Shown piece by piece: positions 676 through 53,792 of a stretch of DNA of 64,000 bases. The DNA is from Rhodospirillales bacterium (GTDB taxonomy: Bacteria; Pseudomonadota; Alphaproteobacteria; Rhodospirillales; UBA2165): assembly GCA_012960465.1 (NCBI GenBank), contig DUBF01000160.1, forward strand, positions 1 to 64,000, given 5' to 3'. The first letter of the stretch is position 1. Each line of letters starts with the position of its first letter. The position numbers and the translations under genes were made by a program. Below the pieces are notes generated by a model that saw nothing but the letters and a program-made list of their open reading frames with translations, ran no database searches and was not told the origin of the DNA.

Positions 676-1557
676 TCACTTTTTATTGCAGTCCTTATTT
701 TCAAATTCTAAAGTCGAATGTTCAATCTCGAATTTTTCATGCAGCATTTGTTTCAGGCGGGCTTTCAAATCGTCCATTCCTGTGCTTTCACTCAAAACAA
801 CATGTGCCTCTAGAGCATTACGGTGTTCGTCTAGTTGCCAAATATGAACATGGTGGACACCTGCCACACCTTTATCGTTCTCCATAGCAACGGTCACTTC
901 TTGAATATGCACACCCTCCGGTGTCCCTTCCATGAGCAGATGAATAACTTTCGGAATTTCAGTAAACCCTTGCCACAAAACGTAGCCGGAAATAATCAGC
1001 GTCATAGCAGCATCCGTCCAGATCCAGCCATATAGTAAAATCAACGTGCCGGTAATGATCACTCCGACTGAAGCCAATGCATCCGTGACATTATGCAGAA
1101 AAGCCGCCTTGATATTCATGCTAGTCTTTGATTGGCTGTATGTTAGCAGCGCAGTAAACACATCAACAATTAAAGCAATTCCGGCAACGATAACAATTGT
1201 CCATCCGGCAATAGGTTCAGGCGACATAAAACGCATAATCGCTTCATAACAAAGGTAAAGCCCAATAATAATCAAAGTTGTTAAATTGATTAATGCTGCA
1301 ACAGTTTCAGCACGTTTATATCCAAAAGTTTTAAATTTATCTGGTGGTTTACGGCCAATACGAATTGCTACCAAGGCAATTAATAGAGAGGCCGCATCGC
1401 TGAAGTTATGCAACGCGTCAGCAATCAGAGATAAACTACCAGAGATTATGCCTCCAATAATTTGAGCTAAAGTGAGGAGAATATTTGCTCCTACTGCCCA
1501 CCATAAGCGTCTCTCACCTATCTCAGATGGATTGCCGTGTGAATGTCCGTGTCCCAT
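676..1557 (-). CDS. czcD: Cation diffusion facilitator, CzcD/ZitB type
   Basis: This 293-residue inner-membrane exporter is predicted to move Zn2+ (possibly Co2+/Cd2+) from cytoplasm to periplasm in exchange for protons. It shows six membrane segments and the paired transport-site motifs HNFSD (H50, D54) and HNVTD (H155, D159), the H-D/H-D pattern of Zn-type CDFs. A cytoplasmic C-terminal domain with HHVHIW follows. The N-terminus is a His-rich tag (MGHGHSH) also found on the neighbouring P-type ATPase. It is the last gene of the czc block and converges on the virD4 relic. Confidence 0.92.
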   Translation of the reverse strand: MGHGHSHGNPSEIGERRLWWAVGANILLTLAQIIGGIISGSLSLIADALHNFSDAASLLIALVAIRIGRKPPDKFKTFGYKRAETVAALINLTTLIIIGLYLCYEAIMRFMSPEPIAGWTIVIVAGIALIVDVFTALLTYSQSKTSMNIKAAFLHNVTDALASVGVIITGTLILLYGWIWTDAAMTLIISGYVLWQGFTEIPKVIHLLMEGTPEGVHIQEVTVAMENDKGVAGVHHVHIWQLDEHRNALEAHVVLSESTGMDDLKARLKQMLHEKFEIEHSTLEFENKDCNKK

Positions 1558-1593
1558 TTTGTTCTTACTCTTTTAATTAATGTTCCATAAAAA

Positions 1594-3618: not shown

Positions 3619-3634
3619 TAACTTCTACTCTCTT

Positions 3635-4258
3635 TTAATTCTTTGCGGGTAATTCTTTGCGGGCTTGTAAAATGATTTTGACCGAGGAATGCATAAATAA
3701 CCCTGCAATAATAAATGCAACGACAATATCGGGCCATACCGTGCCGCTTGCAAAAACACCTAAACCTGCCAAAATTACAGCTATATTACCTATTGCATCA
3801 TTTCGGCTACACAACCAAACCGATTTTATATTGGAGTCGCCTTCACGATATTTTAAAAGCAAAAAGACACTAATCATATTGGCAATGAATGCGAGAACAC
3901 CGATACCGCTCATTGTCATCGGCTCCGGCTCTCCGATTACAATTGTGCGATAAAGCGTAAAACACAAAACAAATAAAGCCATTGCTCCAAGGCTTAAACC
4001 TTTTAACAAAGCCGCTTTAGCTCTTAATTCCAACGATTTTCCTAAAACCAAGAGTGTGATTCCATAGGTTGCAGTGTCTCCCAGAAAATCAAGGGCATCG
4101 GCTTTTAGCGCTGTAGAGTCAGCTAAAAATCCTGCAATAATCTCAACACAGAACATCACGCCATTAATTGCAACAATAATCCAAAGGATGCGTTTATACG
4201 TTTGTGTCATACCATCAAAATTTTGATTGCCACATGAGTCGCCACAATTATCAGCCAT
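3635..4258 (-). CDS. Short cation-diffusion-facilitator-like transporter
   Basis: About 207 residues with a Cys-containing N-terminus (CGDSC) and five to six membrane segments, but no C-terminal cytoplasmic CDF domain. The putative transport sites are LDFLGD and RNDAIGN, so the second site has Asp/Asn where Zn-type CDFs have His/Asp; metal preference may differ. The start at 4258 is chosen because an AAGGG-type site precedes it and its ATG overlaps the lspA stop, as in other genes of this operon. An upstream in-frame ATG at 4306 lies inside lspA. This CDF-plus-LspA pairing recurs in lead/zinc resistance islands. Confidence 0.8.
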   Translation of the reverse strand: MADNCGDSCGNQNFDGMTQTYKRILWIIVAINGVMFCVEIIAGFLADSTALKADALDFLGDTATYGITLLVLGKSLELRAKAALLKGLSLGAMALFVLCFTLYRTIVIGEPEPMTMSGIGVLAFIANMISVFLLLKYREGDSNIKSVWLCSRNDAIGNIAVILAGLGVFASGTVWPDIVVAFIIAGLFMHSSVKIILQARKELPAKN

Positions 4259-4766
4259 AATTTTTGTTCCCTTTATTATTTGAATGTTCGGGACTTTTAA
4301 GTTCATAATATATCAGCAATGATACCCCTATAAAAATAGCACTGTCTGTTAAATTAAAGGCTGGCCAGTGATATCCGGCAAAATGGAAGTCCAAGATATC
4401 TATCACATAACCATAATACAGCCGTTCAAATGTATTGCCTAAAGCGCCGCCGATAAGCAGCCCCAGAGCGCAGCCTACCCATAGTGATTTCGTCCTTAGC
4501 AGCCAAATAAAGAAGAAGCCAGTGATGATGAGCGCCATGAATGAAAGCAGCCATTGACCATACGGAAGCCCCTGCAACATCCCAAAACTGATACCATCAT
4601 TGCCCGTCCAGACCAGATTGAAAAACGGCGTGATTTTTACGAACCCTTCTGAATTTTGTAGATACAGTGAAACGGTCTGTTCAGAGAGACGGTCTATAAC
4701 AATAACCAAAACAGCGAGCTTTATCGCCAAATTGATATGGCGGTACTGAGAGATAACGGCTTTCAT
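4251..4766 (-). CDS. lspA: Signal peptidase II-like protein (LspA) of a metal-resistance operon
   Basis: This 171-residue protein has four membrane helices and the family layout: an N-terminal VIDRLS block, N-D-G-x-S-F-G in the first periplasmic loop, GGALGN before helix 4, and FNLTDSAI with the second catalytic Asp. LspA enzymes cleave lipoprotein signal peptides. The first catalytic motif, normally NxxDR, reads NTFER (GAA codon), so one Asp of the catalytic pair is Glu. The frame is otherwise intact. Extra lspA copies are known in metal-resistance loci. Whether this one still cleaves prolipoproteins is uncertain. Confidence 0.88.
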   Translation of the reverse strand: MKAVISQYRHINLAIKLAVLVIVIDRLSEQTVSLYLQNSEGFVKITPFFNLVWTGNDGISFGMLQGLPYGQWLLSFMALIITGFFFIWLLRTKSLWVGCALGLLIGGALGNTFERLYYGYVIDILDFHFAGYHWPAFNLTDSAIFIGVSLLIYYELKSPEHSNNKGNKNYG

Positions 4767-4767
4767 A

Positions 4768-5165
4768 TTATTTTTTGATGGCCTTGTTTTTTATGGTTTG
4801 AGACTCGGCAAATTCGTTAGCAACATAATCATCAACTACCTTCAGAAAAAGTTGACGAATGTTCTTATCAAATGACTCAAATTTTACTCCAAGCCTATCA
4901 TTAGCTTTGCGAACAATTATACCCTTACAAGGAATTTCCAAAATTGAATGATGCAGCTTAAACTTTAATATTATTTCTAATTTCTGATTCTGCGAAAACA
5001 TGCGGGGATCAGCGACAATTTGAACGCCATCCATTGACCAGTCAACGATAGGATAATTTTTCGACTCAATCATACAAACGGATCGCAACGACGCTAAGCG
5101 ATGGGAAGCTCTACGGGTATGTTCTTGTTCTTGCCTTGTGTTTCTACTCATACTTAAATGATGGC

Positions 5166-5169
<4 letters not shown>
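4768..5169 (-). CDS. PilZ-domain protein
   Basis: A 133-residue soluble protein. After about 20 basic residues it has RRASHR (RxxxR) and, after a beta strand, DWSMDG (D/NxSxxG), the two c-di-GMP-binding signatures of PilZ. A beta-barrel-like alternation and a C-terminal helix complete the fold. The start codon overlaps the stop of the EF-hand gene (ATGA), indicating translational coupling within the czc operon. A c-di-GMP receptor here is unexpected; its target is not evident. Confidence 0.8.
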
Positions 5170-8872
<3,703 letters not shown>

Positions 8873-8888
8873 CTATATAGCTTCAATT

Positions 8889-10025
8889 TTAATGTTCGTG
8901 CGCGGCTGTGCCTTTTAGGATATCCGCCTTGATGACAAAGCTTCCGGCACTCACATAGGTTTCGCCGATTTTTAAGCCGGAAGTAATCTCTACATTTTCC
9001 GTTCCAGTCATGCCGATTTTTACAGGGCGCGGTTCATAGGTATTGCCCTCTTTGATAAAGATGACTTGTTGCTCTTCAATAAATTGCAGGGCTGAGCGCG
9101 GGACAGCGATAGCGGCTTGCTTTTCGCCAACTTTTATATCCCCTTCAATCGTCATACCTGGGCGCCAGACACCGCTTTCATTAGAAAGCTCTGCAATCGC
9201 AATAACAGTTTGGCTTAACGCATCAGTGGTTGGAAACAGCATTGATATTTCCGCATTCTGGCGGTTCTTTTCATCAAGTGTATGAATATCGACCTTTTGC
9301 CCCTTTTTGATCATTGGCACATCGCGTGGGAAGATATGATATTTAGCCCATACGGTCGATAGATCGGCAATCACAAACAATTCCTTGCCGTTTGTCACAT
9401 CGCCAATATTGGTCTCTCGCTTTAGGATTACCCCATCCATGGGGGCATAAACAATATAGGCATTCAGGCTTTCATTACTCTCTACTGTAGCAAGTTTTTG
9501 CCCTTTTTCGACGCTATCACCAAGGTTGACGTGGACGGCTTTTACAATTCCTGGAAATCGTGCGCGGACATTGGCCGTTTTATTTTCATTTAAAACAATA
9601 CGTCCTGTCAGAGGTGTTGTCATGGCCACAGTATCAGGGCCGGCTTGTTTGAATTGAACACCCGTCAGCTTGGCGGCATCCGGCGTAATTTCAACTTTAC
9701 CTTCCTCATGCTCGCCATGATCGTCGCCTCCGCCATGACCATGGTCATCGTGGCTGTCTTCCTTTTTATGGCTGTCATGACCGTGTTCGTCATGGTTATC
9801 CCCTTCCTCGGAATGGTCATCACCGTGATCGTCACCATCAGTTTCATCATGGGCATCTTCATGCTCATGCCCGTCATCATGGCCGTGGTCTTTTTGTTCA
9901 TCATGACCGTGATCATCATGCGCTTCTGTTTCAGCTTTCGCCGAAGTGATTATTGTAGGTGTAAGTTGCCATGCAAAAAGCGCAAGCCCCAGCACTGCTA
10001 TGGATAATAATTTTCTATTCATCAT
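8889..10025 (-). CDS. czcB: Periplasmic adaptor (membrane fusion protein), CzcB type
   Basis: 378 residues with an N-terminal membrane/signal segment followed by about 75 residues extremely rich in His, Asp and Glu (roughly 35-110), a likely metal-capture region. Beyond it lie the usual beta-barrel, lipoyl and alpha-hairpin blocks (for example 'GxVxxVxVxxGDxVxKGQ' around 155-180). It joins CzcA to the outer-membrane channel CzcC. It overlaps the czcC 3' end by 11 bases. Two consecutive ATGs begin the gene, and either could be used. Confidence 0.93.
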   Translation of the reverse strand: MMNRKLLSIAVLGLALFAWQLTPTIITSAKAETEAHDDHGHDEQKDHGHDDGHEHEDAHDETDGDDHGDDHSEEGDNHDEHGHDSHKKEDSHDDHGHGGGDDHGEHEEGKVEITPDAAKLTGVQFKQAGPDTVAMTTPLTGRIVLNENKTANVRARFPGIVKAVHVNLGDSVEKGQKLATVESNESLNAYIVYAPMDGVILKRETNIGDVTNGKELFVIADLSTVWAKYHIFPRDVPMIKKGQKVDIHTLDEKNRQNAEISMLFPTTDALSQTVIAIAELSNESGVWRPGMTIEGDIKVGEKQAAIAVPRSALQFIEEQQVIFIKEGNTYEPRPVKIGMTGTENVEITSGLKIGETYVSAGSFVIKADILKGTAAHEH

Positions 10026-11298
10026 TTTGTCCTTTATTCTTTGTTTGCGATATTTGCGTGATCAGAGAGCTGTGTGTTCCCATCAAAAAATCGGTTTGTG
10101 CTTTGGCCTCATAAACGCTCAACAGGCTGTCCAGACGGGCTTCTTGTACCTCATACAATGTGCGCTGTGCATCGAGCAGATCCAGAAACGTAAAAGCACC
10201 GCGCCCATATCCATCATCGGCTTGGCTGTAAGCTTTACGGGCGCTAGGAATAATTTCGTCCTGATAACGGCTGGTTTCTTCCAGTGATGAAGCGAGGCTT
10301 TCCCATGCCTGAATTGCGGATTGCCGTAAAGATAGTCCAGCAGCATAGCTTTGCGCATCGGCCTTGATCATATTGGCCTTGGCTTCTTGAATTCCGCCCT
10401 GATTACGATTAAAGACAGGAATAGGAAAAGACAGACTGGCCACCAAAGCTGTACTGTCATTTTCATTAAAACGCCGCACACCCAGACCAAAAGTCGGATC
10501 AGGGACGCCCTGTGATCTCGCAAGATCAAAAGAAGAGCGCGCTTGCATCTTGGCAAATTCCTGTGCTTGCGATTGCGGGGCATTCCTTAAAGCATCCAGA
10601 AGAGTTTGCTTTTCAATCAGATCCGGCAATGCGCCTAGATCGGCCTCAATATCAAGATCGGACACATCCATAACACCGAGCAACCGCCCCAGATCATTTT
10701 GTGCCGTAACTAATTCTTTTTGGGCCTTGCGTTTTTCAACTTCTGCCGCTGCTTGTTCAATATCGGCTTTAGTGTGCTGAATGTCTGCTGCTTTTGCAGC
10801 GCCAATGCGTTTTTTGACGATGCTGTGGGTTTTATCCGCTAGATCGAGGCGCTTGTCAGCCAGTGCCATGCGTTCCTGTGCCACGGCTACGCGGATAAAG
10901 GCATATTCAGTTTCAGCGAGAAGGCTCAAGGCTTGTGCTTTGGCTTGTTGTTGAGAAATTTTATAATCAAAATCGGCGACCTTGGTGCGATTGCTACGCT
11001 TGCCGCCCATCTCAATCGTTTGCTCAATACCAAGTGTGAGTTCGGCTCCATCAAAGCCTTCATTTTCATCCTCTCCGGCGAAGTTTTCGATTTCAAAAAC
11101 GGCATCGGGATTCGGCGGCAAAGAGGCTTGAAGGCGTGAGCCATCTGCCGCGTCAATAGCCGCAAGTGCCGCCATATAGGTGGGATTGTTCTGCAACGCC
11201 TTTCGAAGGGCTGTTTCTTTATCAAGACCATCCGCATTCGCCATGGTCGGCTGCCATAGCAGCACTGCCATTGCAGACATAGTGAGGTATTTTTTCAT
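10015..11298 (-). CDS. czcC: Outer-membrane channel of metal efflux, CzcC type
   Basis: A 427-residue TolC-fold protein with a signal peptide (cleavage near ANA, residue 22). It has two repeats of long alpha-helical coiled-coil sequence with the usual 'A-E-x-x-x-A' heptads, and no lipobox. It provides the outer-membrane exit duct for the CzcCBA complex. It is the first gene of the czcCBA-EF-PilZ-lspA-CDF-ATPase-CDF series. The 136 bases upstream (11299-11434) hold no gene; I see no convincing promoter there. Confidence 0.93.
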   Translation of the reverse strand: MKKYLTMSAMAVLLWQPTMANADGLDKETALRKALQNNPTYMAALAAIDAADGSRLQASLPPNPDAVFEIENFAGEDENEGFDGAELTLGIEQTIEMGGKRSNRTKVADFDYKISQQQAKAQALSLLAETEYAFIRVAVAQERMALADKRLDLADKTHSIVKKRIGAAKAADIQHTKADIEQAAAEVEKRKAQKELVTAQNDLGRLLGVMDVSDLDIEADLGALPDLIEKQTLLDALRNAPQSQAQEFAKMQARSSFDLARSQGVPDPTFGLGVRRFNENDSTALVASLSFPIPVFNRNQGGIQEAKANMIKADAQSYAAGLSLRQSAIQAWESLASSLEETSRYQDEIIPSARKAYSQADDGYGRGAFTFLDLLDAQRTLYEVQEARLDSLLSVYEAKAQTDFLMGTHSSLITQISQTKNKGQNDE

Positions 11299-42707: not shown

Positions 42708-44783
42708 TTATAGCTCCATTTCATTATCATCATCACGCCCGCGTGAGGATTGTTGTTCTTGCTGTTTTTGCTGTTCAGCAGCGCGCATTTCGAATAGTCC
42801 GCGCTCGATTTCACTAAACTGAACCTTTTGCCCTTTTTCAAGATCGGGGGCTTTATCAATCCGCGCCATCTGCAACTCTTTTCCGCGCATCGCAACCGCC
42901 CATTTGCCTGTCTCAAGCTCTGTATAGCCAAGATAGGTATATGACTGATCGGACGAGACTTTATGATCGTTGAAGGTAAGACCGGCTTTTGTGGCCAGGA
43001 ATTTACCCTCTTCATGAACTTCCATGACGCTGAGGTCGCGCATTGCTGATTTCTTCATGCCAAAGTCGCCGTTAGACTGGATCATCGCGAGCTTATGATC
43101 AACGAGCCATTCCTGACGTTTTTGAAGTGCTAATTCCAATGATTGATCGGTGATACTGCGATCTCCCTTGCTTCTCTTATATAGCTCTTTATCCAGCCAG
43201 GTTTTCTTTTTCGCATCCGCCATATCTTCCGGTGCATGGGATGAGAGAATATCAAGCTTTGGATAGAACCGCTTTTTCTCGCGCGCATTAATTTTGGCAG
43301 AGATTTCTTTGCCCTTTTCGATCACATCATCAGGAATTTGATAACGCCCCTGCCCTAATTCTCTAGCAGCTTCATTTGCAACCAGTGTTTCAATACGTTT
43401 GATATGGGATTGTAAGTAAGGCTCTCGAACATCTTCATCAATATAAGACTGCTCGGCTGATATATAGGCGCGGTGTTTTTCAATATCATAAATACCCTCA
43501 TTCTGGGCTGCGATCAGCGCGATATTGTGATCGGCCTTACCGGTTGAATGATCAAATGGACGAACCCGCACAAGGCCGCGCTTATTTACCTCATCATAAT
43601 TAAAAGCTTCGCCAACTGGAACGTAATGTTTACCGCCTGATAGAGATTCAACAACGATGTATTTCTTGTCTGTTAGCTCATCGGCTGGCCCTTTATCCAA
43701 AACGCGCCCTTCAATGACCCGCCCCTCTCCGGCCTTCAAAGAATAGACCTCCAGATCATCCAAGCCCTCAACACGCTCATAAAGCTTTTTAATAACATCA
43801 TTGCGCGTGGCAATGCTGGCCAAGACATCTCTATACCCTTCTTTCAATGTATAAACGCCCGGAGGATTTTCGACCGCCATACCGCTTGATGCCAGATAAC
43901 GCAGACGCCCTTTCAGGACTGATTCATAATGCGCCGATTTACCGAAATTATTGTCTTTGCGGACATCGATTGTCTGATCGTCGCCAACCTGTTTTTCAAT
44001 AAAGCGGTCTAAAGAAGTGACACGCAGCGCGTCTACTTCCTTCTCCAATCCTTTTTGAATGTCTTCGATTGAGCGCTCGCCCAATAACTCGGTTGCAATC
44101 TCCTGCGCTCTTGCGCGAATACCAAAAGCGATATAATCGCGGGCCATCACCAGATCCTCACCGCGCGCATCTTTGCCCCGAATAATTACATGCGCATGAA
44201 CATCATCGGTATCATAATGAACTGCCGCCACCCATGAGAGTTTGGTCTTAAGATCACCCTCGACACGCTTCATAACTTCACAAACATAGCCTCTGAAATC
44301 TTCGATCTCATCACCCCGTTCCGGCGAGAGTATCATCCGAAAATGGTGACGATCATTTTTGCATAACTCGAAGAAATCCTGGCGCTCTAATCCCTCATTT
44401 TTAGCATCAAAAAGGATGGCTTTTTCACCATCCTCCCCTGCCCTGTTTCGGCTGATGTAATGGATGTGATGATAGAGATTCTGACCGCCTGAATTGGCAC
44501 CCGCTCCAACACCCTTAGTCTTGTTCTTCACTGGATTGATTTTCACGACCACGCGCTGCGCTGATGCCAAACCTGCAAATGAATTACCGCGCATCAATCC
44601 TGATCTTCGTTTAATCCTCGATGCGCCCGACTTCACTTCGCCATGACGATTGAGCTTTTTAAAGAACGCTTTTCTTGGGCTATCTCTGGTCACGATCAAT
44701 GGCCGGGAAACGCCATCGCTCCCCGTAAAATTCTCAGCCCTGATCCGATCTAAAAACATCAACTTCGCTTTCCAAACTCTCAT
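42708..44783 (-). CDS. Relaxase/mobilization nuclease (VirD2-like, DUF3363 family)
   Basis: 691 residues. The N-terminal relaxase domain has a conserved Tyr-containing strand (NLYHHIHYIS, about 102-111) and the three-His metal motif H-Y-D-T-D-D-V-H-A-H (189-198). The C-terminal half matches DUF3363 relaxases of alphaproteobacteria. It nicks oriT and pilots the strand through VirD4. The first ATG is used; ATG at codon 9 is also possible. The final 60 residues are Gln/Arg-rich. Confidence 0.9.
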   Translation of the reverse strand: MRVWKAKLMFLDRIRAENFTGSDGVSRPLIVTRDSPRKAFFKKLNRHGEVKSGASRIKRRSGLMRGNSFAGLASAQRVVVKINPVKNKTKGVGAGANSGGQNLYHHIHYISRNRAGEDGEKAILFDAKNEGLERQDFFELCKNDRHHFRMILSPERGDEIEDFRGYVCEVMKRVEGDLKTKLSWVAAVHYDTDDVHAHVIIRGKDARGEDLVMARDYIAFGIRARAQEIATELLGERSIEDIQKGLEKEVDALRVTSLDRFIEKQVGDDQTIDVRKDNNFGKSAHYESVLKGRLRYLASSGMAVENPPGVYTLKEGYRDVLASIATRNDVIKKLYERVEGLDDLEVYSLKAGEGRVIEGRVLDKGPADELTDKKYIVVESLSGGKHYVPVGEAFNYDEVNKRGLVRVRPFDHSTGKADHNIALIAAQNEGIYDIEKHRAYISAEQSYIDEDVREPYLQSHIKRIETLVANEAARELGQGRYQIPDDVIEKGKEISAKINAREKKRFYPKLDILSSHAPEDMADAKKKTWLDKELYKRSKGDRSITDQSLELALQKRQEWLVDHKLAMIQSNGDFGMKKSAMRDLSVMEVHEEGKFLATKAGLTFNDHKVSSDQSYTYLGYTELETGKWAVAMRGKELQMARIDKAPDLEKGQKVQFSEIERGLFEMRAAEQQKQQEQQSSRGRDDDNEMEL

Positions 44784-45066
44784 AAAATCTCAATTTTACG
44801 CCCTATTACTATACAACTTATTTAAACTTATAACAAGTATTATTAACGCGTATATTATACAATAATAACAATAAGTTCATATAAATATAATTTATATCTT
44901 TTATCTTGTATTAGTCTAATATCTAACAAACGCACTTCACTATGACATTTGAACTCTGCCCTATCCGCTTTCGCCTTAACCTGTTTGCAAGCTGTGCATT
45001 GCTGTAAATTCAAAGCACAAAAAACGCCCTCATCATTTCCGACAAGAGCGCATTTCGAACAAGAAA
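44784..45066. other. Gene-free AT-rich segment upstream of the relaxase; candidate oriT
   Basis: About 280 bases without a gene. 44800-44930 is strongly AT-rich and holds the inverted repeat ATATAAAT-ATA-ATTTATAT (44879-44897). The part from 44935 is more balanced. An origin of transfer usually lies beside the relaxase gene, and the gene orientation to the right (all leftward) fits an oriT here. No nick consensus is recognised. Confidence 0.4.
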
Positions 45067-46275: not shown

Positions 46276-47217
46276 TCATATCTGTATAGTTTTTCCAGTT
46301 TTTTCGAGTGTGTCCTTATAAACATCGTTCCAGTCCTGCCCTTCTAGGCATGGCCTGTGCGTTTCACACAATCCGTTAAAGCTCGATAACTCGATGGCTT
46401 CACGGATGCGCTTTTCAAACTTTTCGCCGCCTTGGTCATGGTCGGGAATAATGATAATGTGTTCCAGAGCTTCAAAATCGCAGATGAAAGCCGTAATAAT
46501 TTCTCCCTGCTCTGGCGATAACCCACCCCCTGTAGCAGCATAGACAGCTTTTTCTCTATGATATAGCGCATGATAACTTAAAGCATCTATGACGGCTTCT
46601 GCCAAAATCAGCGTATTGTCATCCTTGAAAACATAAGAGCGCCATAGTGTTTTTTCGCTTCCTCTGACAAAAAGGGCTTTATCATGGTTTTTCAATTCAA
46701 GCCCGCAAACCTGCCCGCCCTTAAAATGCGGAAATGCGGCGTTCTGATAGCGGTCTGTAAAAACGCGCCCTACAAACCGTTTATCTGTCAAAAGGGCATC
46801 TGTAAGCCCTCTACTGGCCAAATAACGATGCTTATGGACAGGTTTTAGAGATTTGAAAATTCCCCCGATACGTGCGGGGTCATATTCCTGTGGGGCAACC
46901 TCACGCACATAACTTTTTGCATCTGGCAATAAGACACCGCCGCCAATCCAGTTTTGAAGGTCGCGGCCTATTTCACCCATGCTTTTATGAGTGCGCTTTT
47001 GAGCAAAATCAATAATTGTGCCGTTGTCATCATCGTCTGTGACTGAAAAATAAACCCAAAGATTACCACGCCTTGAAATTATAACTTTATCGCTGTCTTT
47101 TCGCATGGCTATGGATGAGCGTGTGCTTTTCTTACGGTCTACCTCATAGCCTAGATGCGCGGCATACTGGGTCAGGTTTATCTCTGTTTTGAATTTTGAA
47201 TAATCAAGCTGTGTCAT
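46276..47217 (-). CDS. Toprim-domain primase-like protein (DUF3991)
   Basis: 313 residues from the ATG at 47217, behind GGGAGGGCAGG. The DUF3991 part (HKHRYLASRGLTDALL, VCGLELKN) precedes a Toprim domain with 'LILAEAVIDALSYHAL' (catalytic Glu) and 'IIIPDHDQGG' (DxD). Such proteins are plasmid primases or primase-like accessory factors. Overlaps the DUF6876 gene upstream. In the leading region it could prime synthesis on the incoming strand. Confidence 0.85.
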   Translation of the reverse strand: MTQLDYSKFKTEINLTQYAAHLGYEVDRKKSTRSSIAMRKDSDKVIISRRGNLWVYFSVTDDDDNGTIIDFAQKRTHKSMGEIGRDLQNWIGGGVLLPDAKSYVREVAPQEYDPARIGGIFKSLKPVHKHRYLASRGLTDALLTDKRFVGRVFTDRYQNAAFPHFKGGQVCGLELKNHDKALFVRGSEKTLWRSYVFKDDNTLILAEAVIDALSYHALYHREKAVYAATGGGLSPEQGEIITAFICDFEALEHIIIIPDHDQGGEKFEKRIREAIELSSFNGLCETHRPCLEGQDWNDVYKDTLEKTGKTIQI

Positions 47218-47231
47218 ATCCTGCCCTCCCC

Positions 47232-47633
47232 TTAATATTCTGTGGGGAGTAACAAGACATTGTTCACACAATAGAACTTGATGCTGGCAAGCGGAAAATC
47301 AGTGTAGAGAATGCTTTCAGAATATAGCTCGTTGTAATTGCCATCTGTGCAAATAAGCCTTGCCCCCTGCCCTTCTACATTCTTTTTCAATTCCCAACTG
47401 CAAAAATCCTCGCCTGATAGTTTTGGGACACTGGCCTGACACGCAAAAATCTTATCCAAAAGCCAATAAGCTTCGCCATGTTCTGCAACATACTGAACGC
47501 CTTCGGTATATAGATAGGTTCTAAAGGCGGGATGTCTGTACCAGACTTCTGTGCCGTAAAAATTGGACAAATCCTGCTCACGCAGCGTTTTTCGTTGATT
47601 GCCGTTAAGTGATTGCGTTTGTTGGTCTGTCAT
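47232..47633 (-). CDS. DUF6876 family protein
   Basis: 133 residues. The segment TEGVQYVAEHGEAYWLLDKIF and FYCVNNVLLLPTEY at the end are typical of DUF6876, a plasmid/phage-borne family of unknown role. The start follows AAAGGAAAAGGAG. It is the first gene downstream of structured element A. That position makes it a candidate early-expressed or anti-defence gene. Confidence 0.75.
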   Translation of the reverse strand: MTDQQTQSLNGNQRKTLREQDLSNFYGTEVWYRHPAFRTYLYTEGVQYVAEHGEAYWLLDKIFACQASVPKLSGEDFCSWELKKNVEGQGARLICTDGNYNELYSESILYTDFPLASIKFYCVNNVLLLPTEY

Positions 47634-47716: not shown

Positions 47717-47837
47717 GATTGTCATGACCCGGCCTTGCCGGAGGGGGATCACCCGCCTTGCACAAGTCGAAGACGCGGAAAGGTGGGGATACCGGCAAGG
47801 CAGCCGAAGGTGAGCGTCAGCGAAGGTCTTGATAATC
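47717..47837 (+). promoter_or_regulatory. Structured element A (candidate single-stranded promoter)
   Basis: Stems on the + strand: P0 GATTGTCATGACC (47717-47729) with GGTCTTGATAATC (47825-47837); P1 47732-47741 with 47792-47801; P2 CCCGCCTT (47752-47759) with AAGGTGGG (47780-47787); P3 GTC-gaa-GAC (47766-47774). It is one of three copies and lies 84 bases upstream of the DUF6876 start. Wobble pairs are G-T on this strand only. Confidence 0.8.
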
Positions 47838-48048
47838 GGGCCGAAGCGGCCTCTTTAAAAACAAAAGACCGTTCCTATAAGGAATGGCCTTGCCATGAAT
47901 GCGTTAAGGATCGTTACCCTATGGGCCGAAACTCGGGCATCCGAGGTTCGGTGAACTTAGCAGCCCGAAGTGGCCTCGGCCGCTTGGGGGTGCTTAGTGA
48001 ATAGAGCCTGACCTTGGGCTTGTCAAAGCACAAGGAAACGCCCTGACC
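47838..48048. other. Gene-free segment with several hairpins
   Basis: No gene is supported. Hairpins seen: GTTCC-tataa-GGAAT near 47872, CCGAA-a-CTCGG-gcat-CCGAG-g-TTCGG (47926-47951) and CCTTG-g-GCTT-gtca-AAGC-a-CAAGG (48011-48034). They lie just beyond the 3' end of the parA partner gene and could be terminators or a structured RNA. Confidence 0.5.
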
Positions 48049-48354
48049 CTAGCGGGTCTTACGGGCATCTACCAGATCGGCTTCATCAATATCAAAACCC
48101 AAAGCCTTTAAACCGCGCATAACGATGACACCTTGAGGCTCCCTACTCTCTTTGGTCGCATCCCATAGAAGATCCCAAACATATTCAGGCATCGATAAAG
48201 AAGATTTCTTGCGCTTCTTGGTCGCATCCTTCTTTTTCTCGACTTTCAGGCTTGGATAATCCTTTGCCCCTTCTGATAAGCGTTTTTTCAGCTCGTCCGC
48301 GTTACGGTTTTCCGTGCCGACATTCGGAAGATTCTTTAAACTTGGTTTTGCCAT
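48049..48354 (-). CDS. Putative small DNA-binding partner of ParA
   Basis: 101 residues from the ATG at 48354, behind AAAGGGACT. A Lys-rich, disordered N-terminal half precedes a compact region (SSLSMPEYVWDLLWDATKESREPQGVIVMRGLKALGF) with an RHH-like strand-helix-helix pattern. It follows parA by 57 bases, the place of small centromere-binding proteins such as ParG. The role is inferred. Confidence 0.6.
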   Translation of the reverse strand: MAKPSLKNLPNVGTENRNADELKKRLSEGAKDYPSLKVEKKKDATKKRKKSSLSMPEYVWDLLWDATKESREPQGVIVMRGLKALGFDIDEADLVDARKTR

Positions 48355-48383
48355 GATAGTCCCTTTCATAAATGACTAATTAG

Positions 48384-48413
48384 AGAAGTACAGAAGTAAA
48401 GACTTCACTACTT
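48384..48413. repeat. AAGTA/TACTT repeat downstream of parA
   Basis: The bases AAGTACAGAAGTAAAGACTT followed by CACTACTTA contain three AAGTA-type words and an inverted TACTT. The same words recur upstream of parA at 49118-49375. It may be an operator or partition site for ParA and its partner. Confidence 0.4.
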
Positions 48414-49095
48414 ATGCCGCTTGTTTTTGCAGCTTGGCTTCCTCTTTCAAAACTTTATCGATTTCCTTGCCCAGATTTGTGAAGTCTTCAGCAGCAGGAC
48501 TTTTAGGTTCTGTGCGCATGACGGTAGTACCGTAGAAACGCGCCTGTTTATGGGCTTCGCGCTGTCCGATAGTCGTGCGGAAAATCTTGATATTGTTAAT
48601 CTCCTCAAACTGCTTTGCGGCGTGCTCCAGAACAATCGTACCTTTGCGTGTTTGAGACAGCAGAACACGATATTTAATATCGCGCTTGGCAAGCTTGCCT
48701 GCACTTTTAACAGCCTCGATTGTGTTGATCGCTTCATCAATATCATCTTCGGAAGGCTGCGCGGGAACGATAACCAGATCAGCAATACCGGCTGCATATA
48801 AAAGTGCCCTACTCCGAACGCCCGCAACATCTATTAAAACAATGTCATGCTCCTGCGCGGCCTGCTCGGCCGCATCAATAATCTGCTCTTCATCCTCTAA
48901 TGTCTGAAGGCTTACCCCTGCAAACGCATCATCAAGGGCTTTCTTATTGTACCATTTGGAGAGATTTTTGTTCGGGTCAGAATCGAGCATGGCGACTTTC
49001 TTGCCCTTTAAAGCCCAATAATCAGCAAGGTTGGCAACTGTATTGGTTTTGCCAGGGCCGCCTTTTGAGCTGGATATAGCGATAATATATGACAT
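48412..49095 (-). CDS. parA: ParA-family partition ATPase
   Basis: 227 residues with the deviant Walker A KGGPGKT (11-17), 'AMLDSDPNKNLSKWY' and 'IVLIDVAGV' (Walker B). The size matches small type Ib ParA proteins, which have no N-terminal HTH. Works with a centromere-binding partner in plasmid segregation; the small gene just downstream is the likely partner. Confidence 0.92.
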   Translation of the reverse strand: MSYIIAISSSKGGPGKTNTVANLADYWALKGKKVAMLDSDPNKNLSKWYNKKALDDAFAGVSLQTLEDEEQIIDAAEQAAQEHDIVLIDVAGVRSRALLYAAGIADLVIVPAQPSEDDIDEAINTIEAVKSAGKLAKRDIKYRVLLSQTRKGTIVLEHAAKQFEEINNIKIFRTTIGQREAHKQARFYGTTVMRTEPKSPAAEDFTNLGKEIDKVLKEEAKLQKQAA

Positions 49096-49385
49096 TGTTT
49101 AGCTCCTTGGATAAAGGTGTGAAGTAGTGACTTATTCTTGACGGTAAGTCGGCAGGTAATCTCGTGATGAGTTATTGACTTACCATTTAGAGTATATAGC
49201 GACTTGCCCTCTTCGTAAAGTACCATTCTATTGATTTAAAGAAGTAGCTATTTACCGTCTTAATGAAATACAGAAGAGTGTAAGTAGGGTCTTCTCTATG
49301 TCGCTATCTCTTTACCTTCTTACTTATGCACGTACTCTTTTATATGTACAGAGGTATAGAAAACCCTACTTACTCCTTTTGCGCT
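49096..49385. promoter_or_regulatory. parA upstream region with clustered AAGTA/GACTTA words
   Basis: 290 gene-free bases. At least eight short words of the type AAGTA, TACTT, GACTTA or TAAGTC occur in both orientations (for example GTGAAGTAGTGACTTA near 49118, GTAAGTAGGG near 49290, CCCTACTTACT near 49365). This looks like an iteron or centromere array. GTAAGTAGGG and CCCTACTTAC are inverted copies. Confidence 0.5.
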
Positions 49386-49811
49386 TCAACCAGAATGAGC
49401 AATAACAGTAGAGAATTCACCTGTCGGCGCGTCATGATGATAAATCGTATAATCCAGAGTTTTCTTCACAGGGTCATACGTACCTCGAAACGTCCATTCT
49501 GCTGTTTTGGGAAAGGCTTTTTCTATATAGCATTCTGCATTATCGGCCTTAATTTCGGCATGGCCTGATAAATGTCTCCAGCCCATATTCCGGCCTTCTA
49601 CATAGAAAAAGCCTTCGGGTGATATGTCATCCAATATGGCTTTAAGCTGTTCTTTAAAATCATCGAATTCCCATTCCATAACTTGCGTATCAGATATTGC
49701 CATAGAAAATGCTTCATCTTCCGTTTCAGCAATCTCTGCGGCCAAAAATTCGGCAGCGCGCGCGTTGGCAATTTCAATTTCATCCCATGTAATAGTTTGT
49801 ACATTTTGCAT
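49386..49811 (-). CDS. Acidic protein of unknown function in the leading region
   Basis: 141 residues. An acidic helical N-terminus (about 1-60, many Glu/Ala) is followed by a beta-rich part (FFYVEGRNMGWRHLSGHAEI, WTFRGTYDPVKKTLDYTIYHHD). The acidic character recalls DNA-mimic anti-defence proteins, but I recognise no family. It is the third gene of the ArdC group. Confidence 0.65.
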   Translation of the reverse strand: MQNVQTITWDEIEIANARAAEFLAAEIAETEDEAFSMAISDTQVMEWEFDDFKEQLKAILDDISPEGFFYVEGRNMGWRHLSGHAEIKADNAECYIEKAFPKTAEWTFRGTYDPVKKTLDYTIYHHDAPTGEFSTVIAHSG

Positions 49812-49822
49812 GATTTGTTCCT

Positions 49823-50020
49823 TTATTTGATTTTGAGAGTAGGGGGCTTAAACAGATATTGGCCATTCGGGGCATTCAGCGCGGCGGGTATGAATTCCCA
49901 CCAAGCGCAATAACCTGCGCCGTTCAAAACATCGACTTGATGTTTGCAATCTTCACGGTTGTTCCAAATTGAATGTGTTTTTTCGCCTGACCCTGTGTCA
50001 ATAAATACGAGATAAGTCAT
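49823..50020 (-). CDS. Small protein of unknown function
   Basis: 65 residues, with WNNREDCKHQVDVLNGAGYCAWWEF in the middle, i.e. two Cys and several Trp. It lies 12 bases upstream of the acidic 141-residue gene and 50 bases downstream of ardC. The start follows AGGAGC. No family recognised. Confidence 0.6.
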   Translation of the reverse strand: MTYLVFIDTGSGEKTHSIWNNREDCKHQVDVLNGAGYCAWWEFIPAALNAPNGQYLFKPPTLKIK

Positions 50021-50070
50021 AATTTGCTCCTGATATAAGGGGGCAGGGGCGTAGCCCTCCTTTCGATTTC

Positions 50071-50943
50071 TTAATCTTGATTGGTGAATGAAAAGAGGTA
50101 ATCGGCTGCTTTTTGTGCCTGTGAGCTGGCCGAAAAAATAAATTTTTTATCGTCCTTCAAGGCTTTCAGCCAGTTTTGTATATAAATGGCGTGGTCTTCT
50201 CTGGGGCTGGATTCTACGCCTGTGGACGCGCAAAGCATGGCGGCGCCAAGTTCTGCAACCAATTCCTCAAAAGCATAATCTTTTGAAGCAAATTTATGTT
50301 TCTGGTCACGGTTTAAGCGCTTTTCCGCGCCTGTCCAGTGGACAAGCTCATGAAATGCTGTGCTGTAATAATTTTGTGTTGCTGTTGAACCGCAGGTATC
50401 CTTAAAGAATTCAGGGCTTGGCAAATTGATAAAATCATCCATGACGCTGTAATAGGCACGGCGTTCATCAAAGCGAATATCTGCGCCTGATGCGTCAATT
50501 AGATGGTCTGCGGCGGAAATAGCCTGTATATCGTTCGGCTCAAAATTATCTTGGGGCAGGGTATATCCTTCAACCTGATCGGCATTAAAGACAGTTGAAT
50601 ATTTGGCAAACATAATTTGCTCGCGCTGTTCATTGTCTTCGGTTGGCTCGACTTCTATGGATTTCCAAAAAACAATCTGGCGGCCTTTCTCGCCCTTTTT
50701 TACCTGTGCGCCCATATCCTGCCATTGTTTATAAGTTGCCCATGTTCCGCTTGAATAGGCGCTTTTCATCTGGTGCGCCCATAGCAAAGGCACATTGATA
50801 CCGTGATAATAATTTCCCGTGCGGGCGTTCTGGGGAACAATCGAACAACCATGCCAAGGCAATTCAAAGTCATCTGATAAACCTTGCTCCAAGGCTTCAA
50901 TGATTGTGTCAGTAACGGATTGGTAAATATCGGTGCGTTTCAT
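50071..50943 (-). CDS. ardC: ArdC-like antirestriction protein
   Basis: 290 residues. The N-terminal ssDNA-binding domain (FELPWH, GNYYHGINVPLLW, TYKQWQDMGAQVKKGEKG) and a C-terminal zincin-type metalloprotease domain with HELVH (198-202) followed by WTG and RL match ArdC. ArdC protects incoming plasmid DNA from restriction. The start lies behind AAGGAGAAAAGAAG and 78 bases downstream of element B. Confidence 0.92.
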   Translation of the reverse strand: MKRTDIYQSVTDTIIEALEQGLSDDFELPWHGCSIVPQNARTGNYYHGINVPLLWAHQMKSAYSSGTWATYKQWQDMGAQVKKGEKGRQIVFWKSIEVEPTEDNEQREQIMFAKYSTVFNADQVEGYTLPQDNFEPNDIQAISAADHLIDASGADIRFDERRAYYSVMDDFINLPSPEFFKDTCGSTATQNYYSTAFHELVHWTGAEKRLNRDQKHKFASKDYAFEELVAELGAAMLCASTGVESSPREDHAIYIQNWLKALKDDKKFIFSASSQAQKAADYLFSFTNQD

Positions 50944-50964
50944 CTTCTTTTCTCCTTAAAATGT

Positions 50965-50983
50965 GTGTTGCACTTCTTTCCTA
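50965..50983. repeat. 19-base leader repeat, copy 1
   Basis: GTGTTGCACTTCTTTCCTA is identical to 53619-53637. Both copies sit in the leader between a structured element and the start codon of the gene it precedes (ArdC here, ParB there). In this copy it is part of a 7-base hairpin, GCACTTC/GAAGTGC. Confidence 0.75.
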
Positions 50984-51020
50984 GAAGTGCCGTGAAACGG
51001 CTTAAGAAGCGGCTGGAGCA

Positions 51021-51132
51021 GTCAAGGGCCCACAAAAACGGAGGGAGATCACCCGCCTTGCACAAGTCGAAGACGCGGAAAGGCGGGGATACCGTTTTTG
51101 TGCGCTTTAGCGGCCCGAAGGGAGGTCTTGAC
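51021..51132 (+). promoter_or_regulatory. Structured element B (candidate single-stranded promoter)
   Basis: P0 GTCAAG (51021-51026) with CTTGAC (51127-51132); P1 CACAAAAACGG (51031-51041) with CCGTTTTTGTG (51092-51102), 11 pairs with a sequence unrelated to the other copies; P2 51052-51059 with 51080-51087, with G-C where A and C have G-T; P3 GTC-gaa-GAC. The core between the P1 arms is nearly identical to A and C. It precedes ardC by 78 bases. Confidence 0.8.
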
Positions 51133-51146
51133 GGATACAGCCAAGA

Positions 51147-51806
51147 TCAAAAAAGACGGCCATGCTGCCTGAGAAAGGCAAGCGTGGCCGGTGTCCAAGA
51201 AGCGTCGAAAGTCTCCATAGACAGGCTATTGCAACGCTCCACATGGGCGGGGATTCCTGCAAATGTCAGTTGCAAAAAGCACATATGATACGCAATTTGA
51301 CTGATATCCTGAGCGCTTACGAGTAAATGGGAGGAGGGGTCATAACCCATTTCTGCAATAACCTTAGCCGCCGCTAATATCATCCCGCCTGCGCCTGATG
51401 CAGGCTCATTCAGCGTTATAAAGCCTTTTTCCTTAATGGCGGTCTCTGCCCCCTGTAATCCAATCACAGCCATCATTCGAGAGACAGGCATCGGCGTAAA
51501 AAACTGACCTGTTTTAGCATCAAGTGCATTTAATTCAGCAGCGGCCTGTCCGAGAAAGTCTTGTCCGTCCATCACACCGCGCCAAACCATAGCCATAAGA
51601 CGGGGATATGCTCTAATCGTGTCTTTATCACGATATGTTTGAACGATATTCATATAACGCTCTTCAAGGTTTTCGGCGCGATCTGGGGATGCTGTCAATT
51701 TTGCATAGGCGCAAAAGGCCAGTTCACAAAAATCCCTGAATTTTTCGGATGAAGATTTTGAAGGGTCTAAACGTGATAAGTCTCTAATAAATTCTTGAAT
51801 GCTCAT
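51147..51806 (-). CDS. N-6 DNA methylase-like protein without a visible catalytic motif
   Basis: 219 residues of HsdM-type methylase sequence. TGQFFTPMPVSRMM and the SAM-binding motif NEPASGAGGMILA are clear, followed by QDISQIAYHMCFLQLTFAGIPAHVE. The (N/D)PP(Y/F) catalytic motif is not seen; the frame ends about where it would occur. Similar short proteins are common on alphaproteobacterial plasmids. It may bind SAM/DNA without methylating. It is the second gene after parB and ends 15 bases right of element B. Confidence 0.75.
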   Translation of the reverse strand: MSIQEFIRDLSRLDPSKSSSEKFRDFCELAFCAYAKLTASPDRAENLEERYMNIVQTYRDKDTIRAYPRLMAMVWRGVMDGQDFLGQAAAELNALDAKTGQFFTPMPVSRMMAVIGLQGAETAIKEKGFITLNEPASGAGGMILAAAKVIAEMGYDPSSHLLVSAQDISQIAYHMCFLQLTFAGIPAHVERCNSLSMETFDASWTPATLAFLRQHGRLF

Positions 51807-51828
51807 GGTGAATTCCTAAAAAAGAAAA

Positions 51829-51850
51829 GCCGCCCGATATTTCGGGCGGC
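51829..51850 (-). terminator. Rho-independent terminator after parB
   Basis: A perfect 9-base stem (GCCGCCCGA / TCGGGCGGC) with a 4-base loop, 13 bases beyond the parB stop. On the minus strand it is followed by TTTTCTTTTTT. It separates parB from the methylase-like gene, so read-through may be limited. Confidence 0.85.
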
Positions 51851-51862
51851 AAATTGGTAGAA

Positions 51863-53584
51863 TTAAGCGGCCTCTTTGAAATCCTCGGCTGTATCGTCCA
51901 AGGTTTCATCCTGCTCGACCTGCTTCACATCAGGGTCAATCGCAGGGAAAGCCATAGCTTCTGGAATCCAGAATGTTGCTTTCAATTCGTCTTCACTGGG
52001 GCTTTCAAGTGTAAGAACGTGCTGAAAATGTTTGCTCATTGAGGTCACAAGTTCTTTTTTCTTATATCCTGCAACATTGCCGAATTTCTGAAAGCACCCT
52101 GCCTCGGTAACAATCTGCTGTAATTGCACCTTGTTACGGCGTTTCAAAAAGGCTTCATCTGGTCGCCAGTAATTCCGCATATCAACACGCAAATCCTGGG
52201 CAACCTGATTGAAGATGCTGCCTTCATAAGTATCAAGCTGATCACAGAATAATTGCCCGAATTCCAAGGCATCCAGTGTCACCAAAAGGCTTTCTAAAAC
52301 ATCATCCGATAAGTCTTTGACAGCTTTATAGGCATCTTCTAGGTCATAGTTGAAAAGATAACCCAAATCGCGCCATGTAGCGTCTTCGGAGTCATGGCCG
52401 AAATGCGCCAATAAAGCCTTTGCCTGTTCATTGATAATTGCGAGGGCAGGGGAGGTTGTCTCTTCCTGCTCGAAATAGGACAGACAATCATGGTTTTTGA
52501 AACGATATAGCTTGTTTGCGACAGCAAGCTGTTTCGCAACCCTTGGGTTTTCAATCAAAGCCGATTGAACCGCGATACTTTTATGCATGGCCATATAACG
52601 GCGTAGCGGAGTAGGGTAAGTGGCTTTAGGCTTCACTTTAAGGCTATTTGCTGTACCTTCATCAGCCTTGGTTTTGATAAGCCCTTCATGGACTTCAACA
52701 GCACCGCTTGCCGATAACGAAACAATAACGCCTCCTGTCTCACCTTCTTCGGCGCGGCCATACTGCCAAGCACTGAAATAGCTCTCAACAAATTCCACCC
52801 AATCGGCTTTCTCACGATAGGATTCTGCTAGTTCTTCCGCCGCTTGCTTTTGCAAATCAAAGAATTGCTCTGCATCATTGAAATAGGTGTTATCATCCTC
52901 GCCTAAAAGGTCGGTTGTATACTCACCTGTGTAAAGCTCACGCTCAAAAATAGCCATAGAGAGGGTAGGAAGATCGCCCAGAATACGGTCTTTAATATCT
53001 TCGGCATCCCAATAACCTGATTTAGCCATATTGAGACAGCGTTCCTGCTCCTCAAATGTGCCAACACTCAATGCTTCTGCCTGTGAAAGGGTAATTTCAC
53101 CTGTCTCAAGACATTCTTTGACTGTCTCACTTAACTGCATGAGAACAAGGCGACGTCTGACTGTATGTGCGCTTAATCCTGTTTGAGCGACAATATCATC
53201 AAGTTTTTCACCGTCCTGAACCAGTTTTGTTAGCGCTTGTGCTTCCTCCAATGGTGTAAGGTCTTGCCTTTGGATGTTTTCCATTGTGGCAATTCGCAAA
53301 GCCGTATCGGCATCGAGGTCGTCTTTAATTTCAACAGTAACCTCGTAATCTTTCGGCAAATCGCCATTTTCAACCAAAAGGCTGATAGCCCGAAAACGGC
53401 GTTCACCGCAGATAATAGGGTGTAATTTCTTTTTGCCCTTGGCTTTTCCGACAATCAGGTTTTGAAGCAATCCGTCAGTTTTAATAGATTGTGCCAAGCC
53501 AATAATTGAATCATCATCAAAGGCTTTGCGCGGGTTTGCATCCGAAACCTGAATTTTCGTGATTGGTAGTTTTGTGTAAGTCAT
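51863..53584 (-). CDS. parB: ParB/RepB/Spo0J-family protein, large form
   Basis: 573 residues. The ParB N-terminal domain includes ANPRKAF, GLAQSIKTDGLLQNLIV and GERRFRA (60-66), followed by an HTH (DDIVAQTGLSAHTVRRRLVL, about 120-140). The long C-terminal part is family-specific. It is far from parA and lies beside anti-restriction genes, so it may not be the partition partner. Start preceded by AAAGGAAAAAACT and 84 bases from element C. Confidence 0.88.
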   Translation of the reverse strand: MTYTKLPITKIQVSDANPRKAFDDDSIIGLAQSIKTDGLLQNLIVGKAKGKKKLHPIICGERRFRAISLLVENGDLPKDYEVTVEIKDDLDADTALRIATMENIQRQDLTPLEEAQALTKLVQDGEKLDDIVAQTGLSAHTVRRRLVLMQLSETVKECLETGEITLSQAEALSVGTFEEQERCLNMAKSGYWDAEDIKDRILGDLPTLSMAIFERELYTGEYTTDLLGEDDNTYFNDAEQFFDLQKQAAEELAESYREKADWVEFVESYFSAWQYGRAEEGETGGVIVSLSASGAVEVHEGLIKTKADEGTANSLKVKPKATYPTPLRRYMAMHKSIAVQSALIENPRVAKQLAVANKLYRFKNHDCLSYFEQEETTSPALAIINEQAKALLAHFGHDSEDATWRDLGYLFNYDLEDAYKAVKDLSDDVLESLLVTLDALEFGQLFCDQLDTYEGSIFNQVAQDLRVDMRNYWRPDEAFLKRRNKVQLQQIVTEAGCFQKFGNVAGYKKKELVTSMSKHFQHVLTLESPSEDELKATFWIPEAMAFPAIDPDVKQVEQDETLDDTAEDFKEAA

Positions 53585-53618
53585 AGTTTTTTCCTTTCGC
53601 TGATTTAGTTAAAAGTGC

Positions 53619-53637
53619 GTGTTGCACTTCTTTCCTA
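53619..53637. repeat. 19-base leader repeat, copy 2
   Basis: Identical to 50965-50983 and located 35 bases upstream of the parB start, between element C and the gene. The flanking hairpin seen in copy 1 is broken here and replaced by GTGC/GCAC and GCCGC/GCGGC stems. Confidence 0.75.
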
Positions 53638-53667
53638 TGAGCCGCGTAGCGGCACGAAAGCGGGGGA

Positions 53668-53792
53668 GATTTAAACCATGACCCGGACTTCCCGGAGGGG
53701 GATCACCCGCCTTGCACAAGGCGAAGCCGCGGAAAGGTGGGGATACCGGCAAGTCCGCCGAAGGTGAGCGTCAGCGAAGGTCTTGTTAAATC
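53668..53792 (+). promoter_or_regulatory. Structured element C (candidate single-stranded promoter)
   Basis: P0 GATTTAA..CA.GACC (53668-53683) with GGTC.TG.TTAAATC (53779-53792); P1 GGACTTCCCGG (53685-53695) with CCGGCAAGTCC (53746-53756), one mismatch; P2 CCCGCCTT (53706-53713) with AAGGTGGG (53734-53741); P3 GGC-gaa-GCC (53720-53728), a two-sided change from GTC/GAC in A and B. P3 contains GCGAAGC, known as an unusually stable DNA mini-hairpin. Confidence 0.8.

Follow-up and report, generated by a model that had tools for sequence, protein, structure and literature searches.

We analyzed a 64,000-nucleotide stretch from a Rhodospirillales bacterium (assembly GCA_012960465.1, contig DUBF01000160.1, positions 1 to 64,000; hereafter, the window), which carries three copies (A, B and C) of a folded non-coding element upstream of leftward genes for DUF6876, ArdC and ParB-family proteins. 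These elements belong to a real, widespread, uncatalogued and compact family conserved in structure, whose features point to an element that evolved to fold as single-stranded DNA (ssDNA) of the + strand. In related plasmids, they occur in the leading region, on the strand that is transferred (T-strand). On these sequence features, they are probably cis-acting zygotic single-stranded promoters, functionally like Frpo of plasmid F.

Fold, anatomy and distribution of the element

The initial annotation, made from three copies, described a shared core of about 50 bases flanked by stems that differ and still pair. All three elements were found where it had placed them, with a common core of about 55 bases, and the distances to the start codons had been given correctly (Table 1). 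The arms of P0, P1 and P3 differ among the copies yet pair, with one mismatch in P1 of C; P3 changes on both sides, from GTC/GAC in A and B to GGC/GCC in C, and the P2 wobble of A and C is G.T on the + strand. The annotation had taken these compensatory changes as strong evidence for the fold. The fold is real, but its proof comes from a large alignment, not from three copies. Single-sequence folding as DNA and RNA, which it had proposed, supported either strand of A and of B (z mostly -2.7 to -4, but -1.7 for the minus strand of A as DNA), whereas the + strand of C folded poorly. A, B and C are the sole copies within the whole assembly.

For the larger alignment, fixed-register blocks from 135 copies were scored by G statistics with average product correction. 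The null consisted of 60 simulated alignments preserving per-column substitutions on a FastTree tree, a simplified home-made version of the R-scape idea. Covariation was significant: the top 12 of about 3,700 column pairs were exactly the predicted P1 (k 0-8) and P2 (j 4-6) pairs, six of which lay above every value of the 60 simulations, and a seventh pair had an expectation value (E) of about 0.05. In a separate count of 48 sequences, 90.2% of cells were paired, and the covariation score was 0.496; shuffling lowered it to 0.156±0.012, and sliding to no more than 0.15.

Read 5' to 3' on the + strand, the leftward gene's start codon and ribosome site come first, followed by hairpins P-2 and P-1 (for example, CCCGCGCCAATGAGCGGG for P-1) and the 5' arms of P0 and P1. 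Next come GAGGGGGATCR, P2 (CCCGNYYT), GCA, P3, GAA, P2', GANA and P1'; the 3' part contains P0', often with CTTG, and then hairpin P4. P1 is almost unconstrained in sequence while its complementarity is kept, and P2 and the internal loops are almost invariant. P3 is frequently closed by d(C-GNA-G), and is nearly missing in one copy (L029). CTTG was present in the P0' arm region of 60 of 79 copies, compared with 25 expected. Because CAAG/CTTG is common to P0 arms, the partner-swap test was weak for this helix (10 of 79 above the 95% null); we treat P0 as a pairing helix, without proof from covariation. The leader hairpin P-2 is real, with a median of 8 bp as against 5 in shuffles.

A plasmid search with element A as the query retrieved 64 places in 31 records, and the consensus query retrieved 149 places in 81 records, 45 of which were typed as conjugative. 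A strict pattern matched at least 119 stretches in GTDB genomes, mainly of Alphaproteobacteria; matches beyond this class occurred in Thiothrix, Pseudomonas, Competibacter and Microbulbifer, as well as in the isolates Cerasicoccus arenae (Verrucomicrobiota) and Kordia periserrulae (Bacteroidota). With the covariance model, 16 of 385 sampled alphaproteobacterial genomes and 2 of 249 genomes in the family of the Kordia genome were positive. As the initial annotation had predicted, the covariance-model search recovered numerous copies that precede leading-region genes and lie close to relaxases. The strict pattern had no match in IMG/VR, the consensus query had none in 5,426 E. coli genomes, and Rfam 15 gave none at the gathering score, with weak sub-threshold chance matches alone at lax thresholds. 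No description of the element was found in the literature searched for core sequences or for ArdC, leading region and Alphaproteobacteria, a corpus mostly outside subscription papers. One pattern match, in an Oscillospiraceae metagenome-assembled genome (L069), was judged to be a chance match.

Folding strand, transferred strand and downstream genes

Across the family, P2 wobbles on the + strand were G.T in 57 cases and A.C in 8, bearing out the earlier proposal that the + strand is the folding strand. Extraordinary stability of DNA mini-hairpins is a general property of GNA triloops. Consistent with a DNA fold, C-GNA-G triloops numbered 79 on the + strand (18.6±4.4 in shuffles) and 6 on the minus strand, and RNA-type C-GNRA-G tetraloops were depleted (4, compared with 12.9 expected). 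A well-known member of this class, GCGAAGC, is an extraordinarily stable DNA mini-hairpin used, for example, in PMC4686876. Taken together, the wobble bias, the GNA loops and the GNRA depletion indicate that the functional form is ssDNA of the + strand.

Relaxase polarity was scored in 62 element-relaxase pairs lying on one contig and at most 40 kb apart. In 58 of the 62 pairs, the relaxase lay 5' of the element; in 52 of these its gene was on the opposite strand, pointing away, and in the other 6 it was on the same strand, apparently always in Rhodobacteraceae-type systems. Eleven plasmid records, MOBF and MobQ types among them, were also read by eye, and 30 of their 32 elements fit this polarity. 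In MOBP systems, the nic consensus is YATCCTGY and the transferred strand continues 3' of nic. In the stretch of about 1.5 kb upstream of the relaxase, all 11 exact TATCCTGC nic sequences were on the same strand as the element and none on the other. The nic strand and the relaxase position together place the elements of these plasmids on the T-strand. Some nic-like 8-mers occurred on the wrong strand but at nearly 3 kb or more from the relaxase, and were set aside by distance; they mostly share one conserved sequence resembling coding DNA.

Coupling to genes was analyzed in 71 dereplicated copies with enough flank, with distances to the ATG counted from the start of the analyzed element block (about the P0 arm). 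An ATG with a ribosome site was found leftward within 300 nt in 65 of the 71 copies, compared with 17 in the mirror direction, and the spacing was narrow (median 76 nt, quartiles 72 and 83). The downstream genes are of unrelated families typical of leading regions: among the 61 scanned were ArdC (22), DUF3768 (7), ArdA (6), ParB (6), DUF932 (5), RadC (2) and methylase (2).

Predicted function as a zygotic single-stranded promoter

The fixed distance to start codons, the placement on the T-strand, the leading-region genes and the ssDNA signature fit zygotic single-stranded promoters. During conjugation, the + strand would enter the recipient 5' end first, from an origin of transfer (oriT) near the relaxase gene. 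The entering element would fold into P1-P2-P3, with purine-rich conserved internal loops, giving a partly duplex structure, and host RNA polymerase, or a factor that recruits it, would start leftward transcription on the same strand, within 75-85 bases ahead of the start codon. ArdC, the methylase, ParB, DUF6876 and similar proteins would be made before the second strand, and the signal would vanish once the DNA is double-stranded. Transcription start at the element, its confinement to the single-stranded stage and recognition by host RNA polymerase are inferences. Because P1 varies freely, sequence-specific recognition would depend mainly on the P2 core and the loops. Primase, single-stranded DNA-binding protein and sigma factor are all missing from the gene listing of a complete 17-kb element-bearing plasmid, suggesting that the recogniser is a host protein. 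More tentatively, the folded DNA core itself, rather than sigma-70 boxes, might be what is recognised, in a new class of ssDNA control element that would switch on anti-defence genes in recipients across Proteobacteria, Bacteroidota and Verrucomicrobiota.

Several observations weigh against this assignment. The -10 and -35 boxes were not enriched over shuffles; since the same scan also misses Frpo1 and Frpo2 of F, however, the sigma-70 hexamer scan is uninformative either way. About six exact nic 8-mers would be expected by chance over both strands of the searched region; the weight of the nic evidence therefore lies in the 11:0 strand bias and not in the count. The plasmid of the window itself, which has a DUF3363-type relaxase, contains no recognisable nic, and its T-strand polarity is not proven. 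The initial annotation had made its model depend on transfer of the + strand; the element's strand is the transferred one in relatives with a recognisable nic, but this is not directly established for the window's plasmid. Five copies about 1-3.5 kb from a relaxase are inverted, on the strand opposite to other copies (Table 1), the inverted copy of Caulobacter p2 having a damaged core, and one further pair (G449:C22) also has the relaxase on the wrong side. Finally, the gene-proximal hairpin P-2 shows no strand preference and is therefore perhaps an mRNA feature; the P-2 leader repeat at B and C is possibly an mRNA leader structure.

A folded T-strand could instead act as a single-strand initiation site, recruiting primase, the PriA primosome or a primer-making RNA polymerase without any mRNA. 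Such sites are typically T-strand-specific folded ssDNA with a conserved core, plasmids carry many copies of the element, and Frpo of F is described as yielding both transcripts and primer RNA (Masai and Arai 1997, by the title listed in PMC11541004). However, priming needs neither tight spacing nor fixed orientation to the start codons of unrelated genes, and a Toprim_2 primase-type domain was present on 0 of 10 element-bearing plasmid records; we regard this account as unlikely, and a role in second-strand priming, alone or beside a promoter, as possible. It is very unlikely that the + strand is transcribed and that the structure acts as an antisense or small RNA covering the 5' region of the gene. 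Although covariation cannot separate RNA from DNA folding and A and B fold strongly as RNA, the loops are GNA triloops of DNA type with RNA-type GNRA depleted, there is no Rfam family, and the promoter would need to sit in unrelated coding sequences or within the element.

Still less probable is a double-stranded regulatory site, whose inverted repeats would be used by a dimeric protein or a cruciform. Inverted repeats may mimic stems and P-2 is strand-neutral, but the letters of P1 vary freely with pairing retained, and the G.T-over-A.C bias and strand-specific loops would be meaningless in a duplex. The least probable of these alternatives is an attC-like single-stranded recombination site that shuffles leading-region gene cassettes. 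The modular units of gene plus element and the greater likeness of copies within one plasmid than between plasmids would suit it, whereas nothing suggestive of integron core sites or a linked integrase was seen, and the element lies on the 5' side of genes at a fixed distance.

The promoter assignment can be compared with known systems. Frpo1 and Frpo2 of F are zygotic single-stranded promoters shown in vivo and described as reconstituting -10 and -35 boxes (PMC9849209). Like the elements, Frpo is a folded, non-coding site that lies in the leading region, on the T-strand, and is present in multiple copies per plasmid. Frpo precedes leading genes pointing to oriT (ssb, psiB), as the elements do, and the leading region of F holds similar gene families (ParB, DUF932, antirestriction, methylase). 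By contrast, the best covariance-model hit in the F leading region (17.5 kb, filters off) scored 11.9 bits (E 0.12), as against about 44-94 bits for members. Frpo copies lie within a 0.55-kb repeat that folds as a single very long imperfect hairpin, whereas the elements have a strongly conserved core of about 100 bases, internal loops and GNA mini-hairpins, and are absent from E. coli genomes. The initial annotation had called the elements Frpo-like: the functional likeness is supported, but membership of the Frpo family by homology is not. It had rightly recognised no known element in the sequence, which has no sequence or structural relation to Frpo of F. The motif CAATGAGC, common to P-1 hairpins and Frpo2, was rejected as a coincidence, as it is missing from Frpo1 and occurs in only 15 of 79 elements.

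Promoters of the phage N4 virion RNA polymerase are also small ssDNA hairpins, with GNA-type loops, that are recognised in folded form; they differ in belonging to a phage system with a dedicated polymerase and in size and architecture. The ssi / ColIb-P9 single-stranded promoters resemble the elements in description, as T-strand sites tied to early ardA, ssb and psiB expression according to the citation in PMC9849209. Single-stranded promoters elsewhere have been surveyed by BLAST homology (PMC11541004), and Frpo/ssi searches have run BLAST with five known sequences, together with candidates obtained from these or from the -35/-10 consensus (PMC11541004, PMC12826799). Such searches are not expected to detect the element family, which could serve as a marker for leading regions and new anti-defence genes where they fail.

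Zygotic expression from single-stranded promoters has been studied in enterobacterial plasmids. Another such family, unrelated to the first and present in Alphaproteobacteria and other groups, would point to more than one origin of the strategy. An element this compact and strongly constrained lends itself to working out how folded DNA is read by RNA polymerase or by priming proteins. DNA-specific GNA loops are preferred, an evolutionary mark of a fold that functions as DNA, not RNA, and one that could reveal others.

Genes of the window and further copies

The window lies on a 76.4-kb contig of a 3.74-Mb assembly. From left to right, its leftward genes encode the relaxase, DUF736, ParDE, Toprim/DUF3991, DUF6876, ParA, ArdC, N6-methylase and ParB; to the right of ParB lie genes of mixed direction and RepC. 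This transfer-like region is flanked by long open reading frames (ORFs) at 676-11298 and 24-39.8 kb, which, judged from ORF starts alone, resemble cation transporters (MGHGHSH) and RND-type efflux or copper-resistance proteins.

Table 1. Coordinates of the elements, their helices and neighbouring genes (window positions, except in the last row)
Feature	Position	Strand	Remarks
Element A (P0-P1-P2-P3-P0')	47717..47837	+	84 bases upstream of leftward DUF6876 gene; covariance model R1, 87.6 bits
A, P1 5' arm GCCTTGCCGG	47732..47741	+	partner CCGGCAAGGC 47792-47801; covarying helix
A, P2 5' arm CCCGCCTT	47752..47759	+	partner AAGGTGGG 47780-47787, one G.T wobble
A, P3 GTC-GAA-GAC	47766..47774	+	d(C-GAA-G) mini-hairpin
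A, P0' 3' arm GGTCTTGATAATC	47825..47837	+	conserved CTTG; partner 47717-47729
Element B	51021..51132	+	78 bases upstream of leftward ArdC gene; covariance model R1, 88.7 bits
B, P1 5' arm CACAAAAACGG	51031..51041	+	partner CCGTTTTTGTG 51092-51102
Element C	53668..53792	+	84 bases upstream of leftward ParB gene; covariance model R1, 86.5 bits
C, P1 5' arm GGACTTCCCGG	53685..53695	+	partner CCGGCAAGTCC 53746-53756, one mismatch
Leader repeat AAARTGYGTGTTGCACTTCTTTCCTA, hairpin AAGTGCGTGTTGCACTT (P-2)	53612..53637	+	between element C and ParB gene
Near-copy of P-2 leader repeat	50958-50983		between element B and its gene
Candidate oriT: perfect inverted repeat ATATAAAT/ATTTATAT, then TATCTTGT	44879..44910	+	one mismatch to YATCCTGY; suggestive only
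Relaxase (DUF3363 / VirD2-like)	42708..44783	-	
Toprim/DUF3991 ORF	46276-47271		overlaps and comes after DUF6876 gene
DUF6876 protein	47232..47633	-	
ArdC anti-restriction protein	50071..50943	-	ArdcN and MPTase-PolyVal domains
N6 adenine methylase	51147..51806	-	
ParB-family protein	51863..53584	-	first gene of unit downstream of element C
Inverted copies in other records	L137 10317-10418; G447:C3:63600; G457:C40:33791; G481:C23:40194; NZ_CP013266 28341	+ (L137)	

In L012, L013 and W10 (the last being NZ_CP025410.1), copies within a plasmid are near-identical although copies of different plasmids diverge widely, the pattern that concerted evolution would give. A clear element, scoring 36 bits, was present at 19922-20062 of L208 (MT835635.1), a human faecal record labelled 'Bacteriophage sp.' and marked unverified, which may be a conjugative plasmid contig mislabelled as phage. 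Elements were also seen in the Kordia and Cerasicoccus isolates and in Calothrix and Saprospiraceae assemblies (L111 6672-6771, L048, L033 and L086). The Kordia and Calothrix copies precede similar N6-methylase-like genes, which suggests a cross-phylum sub-family, although draft assemblies may be contaminated.

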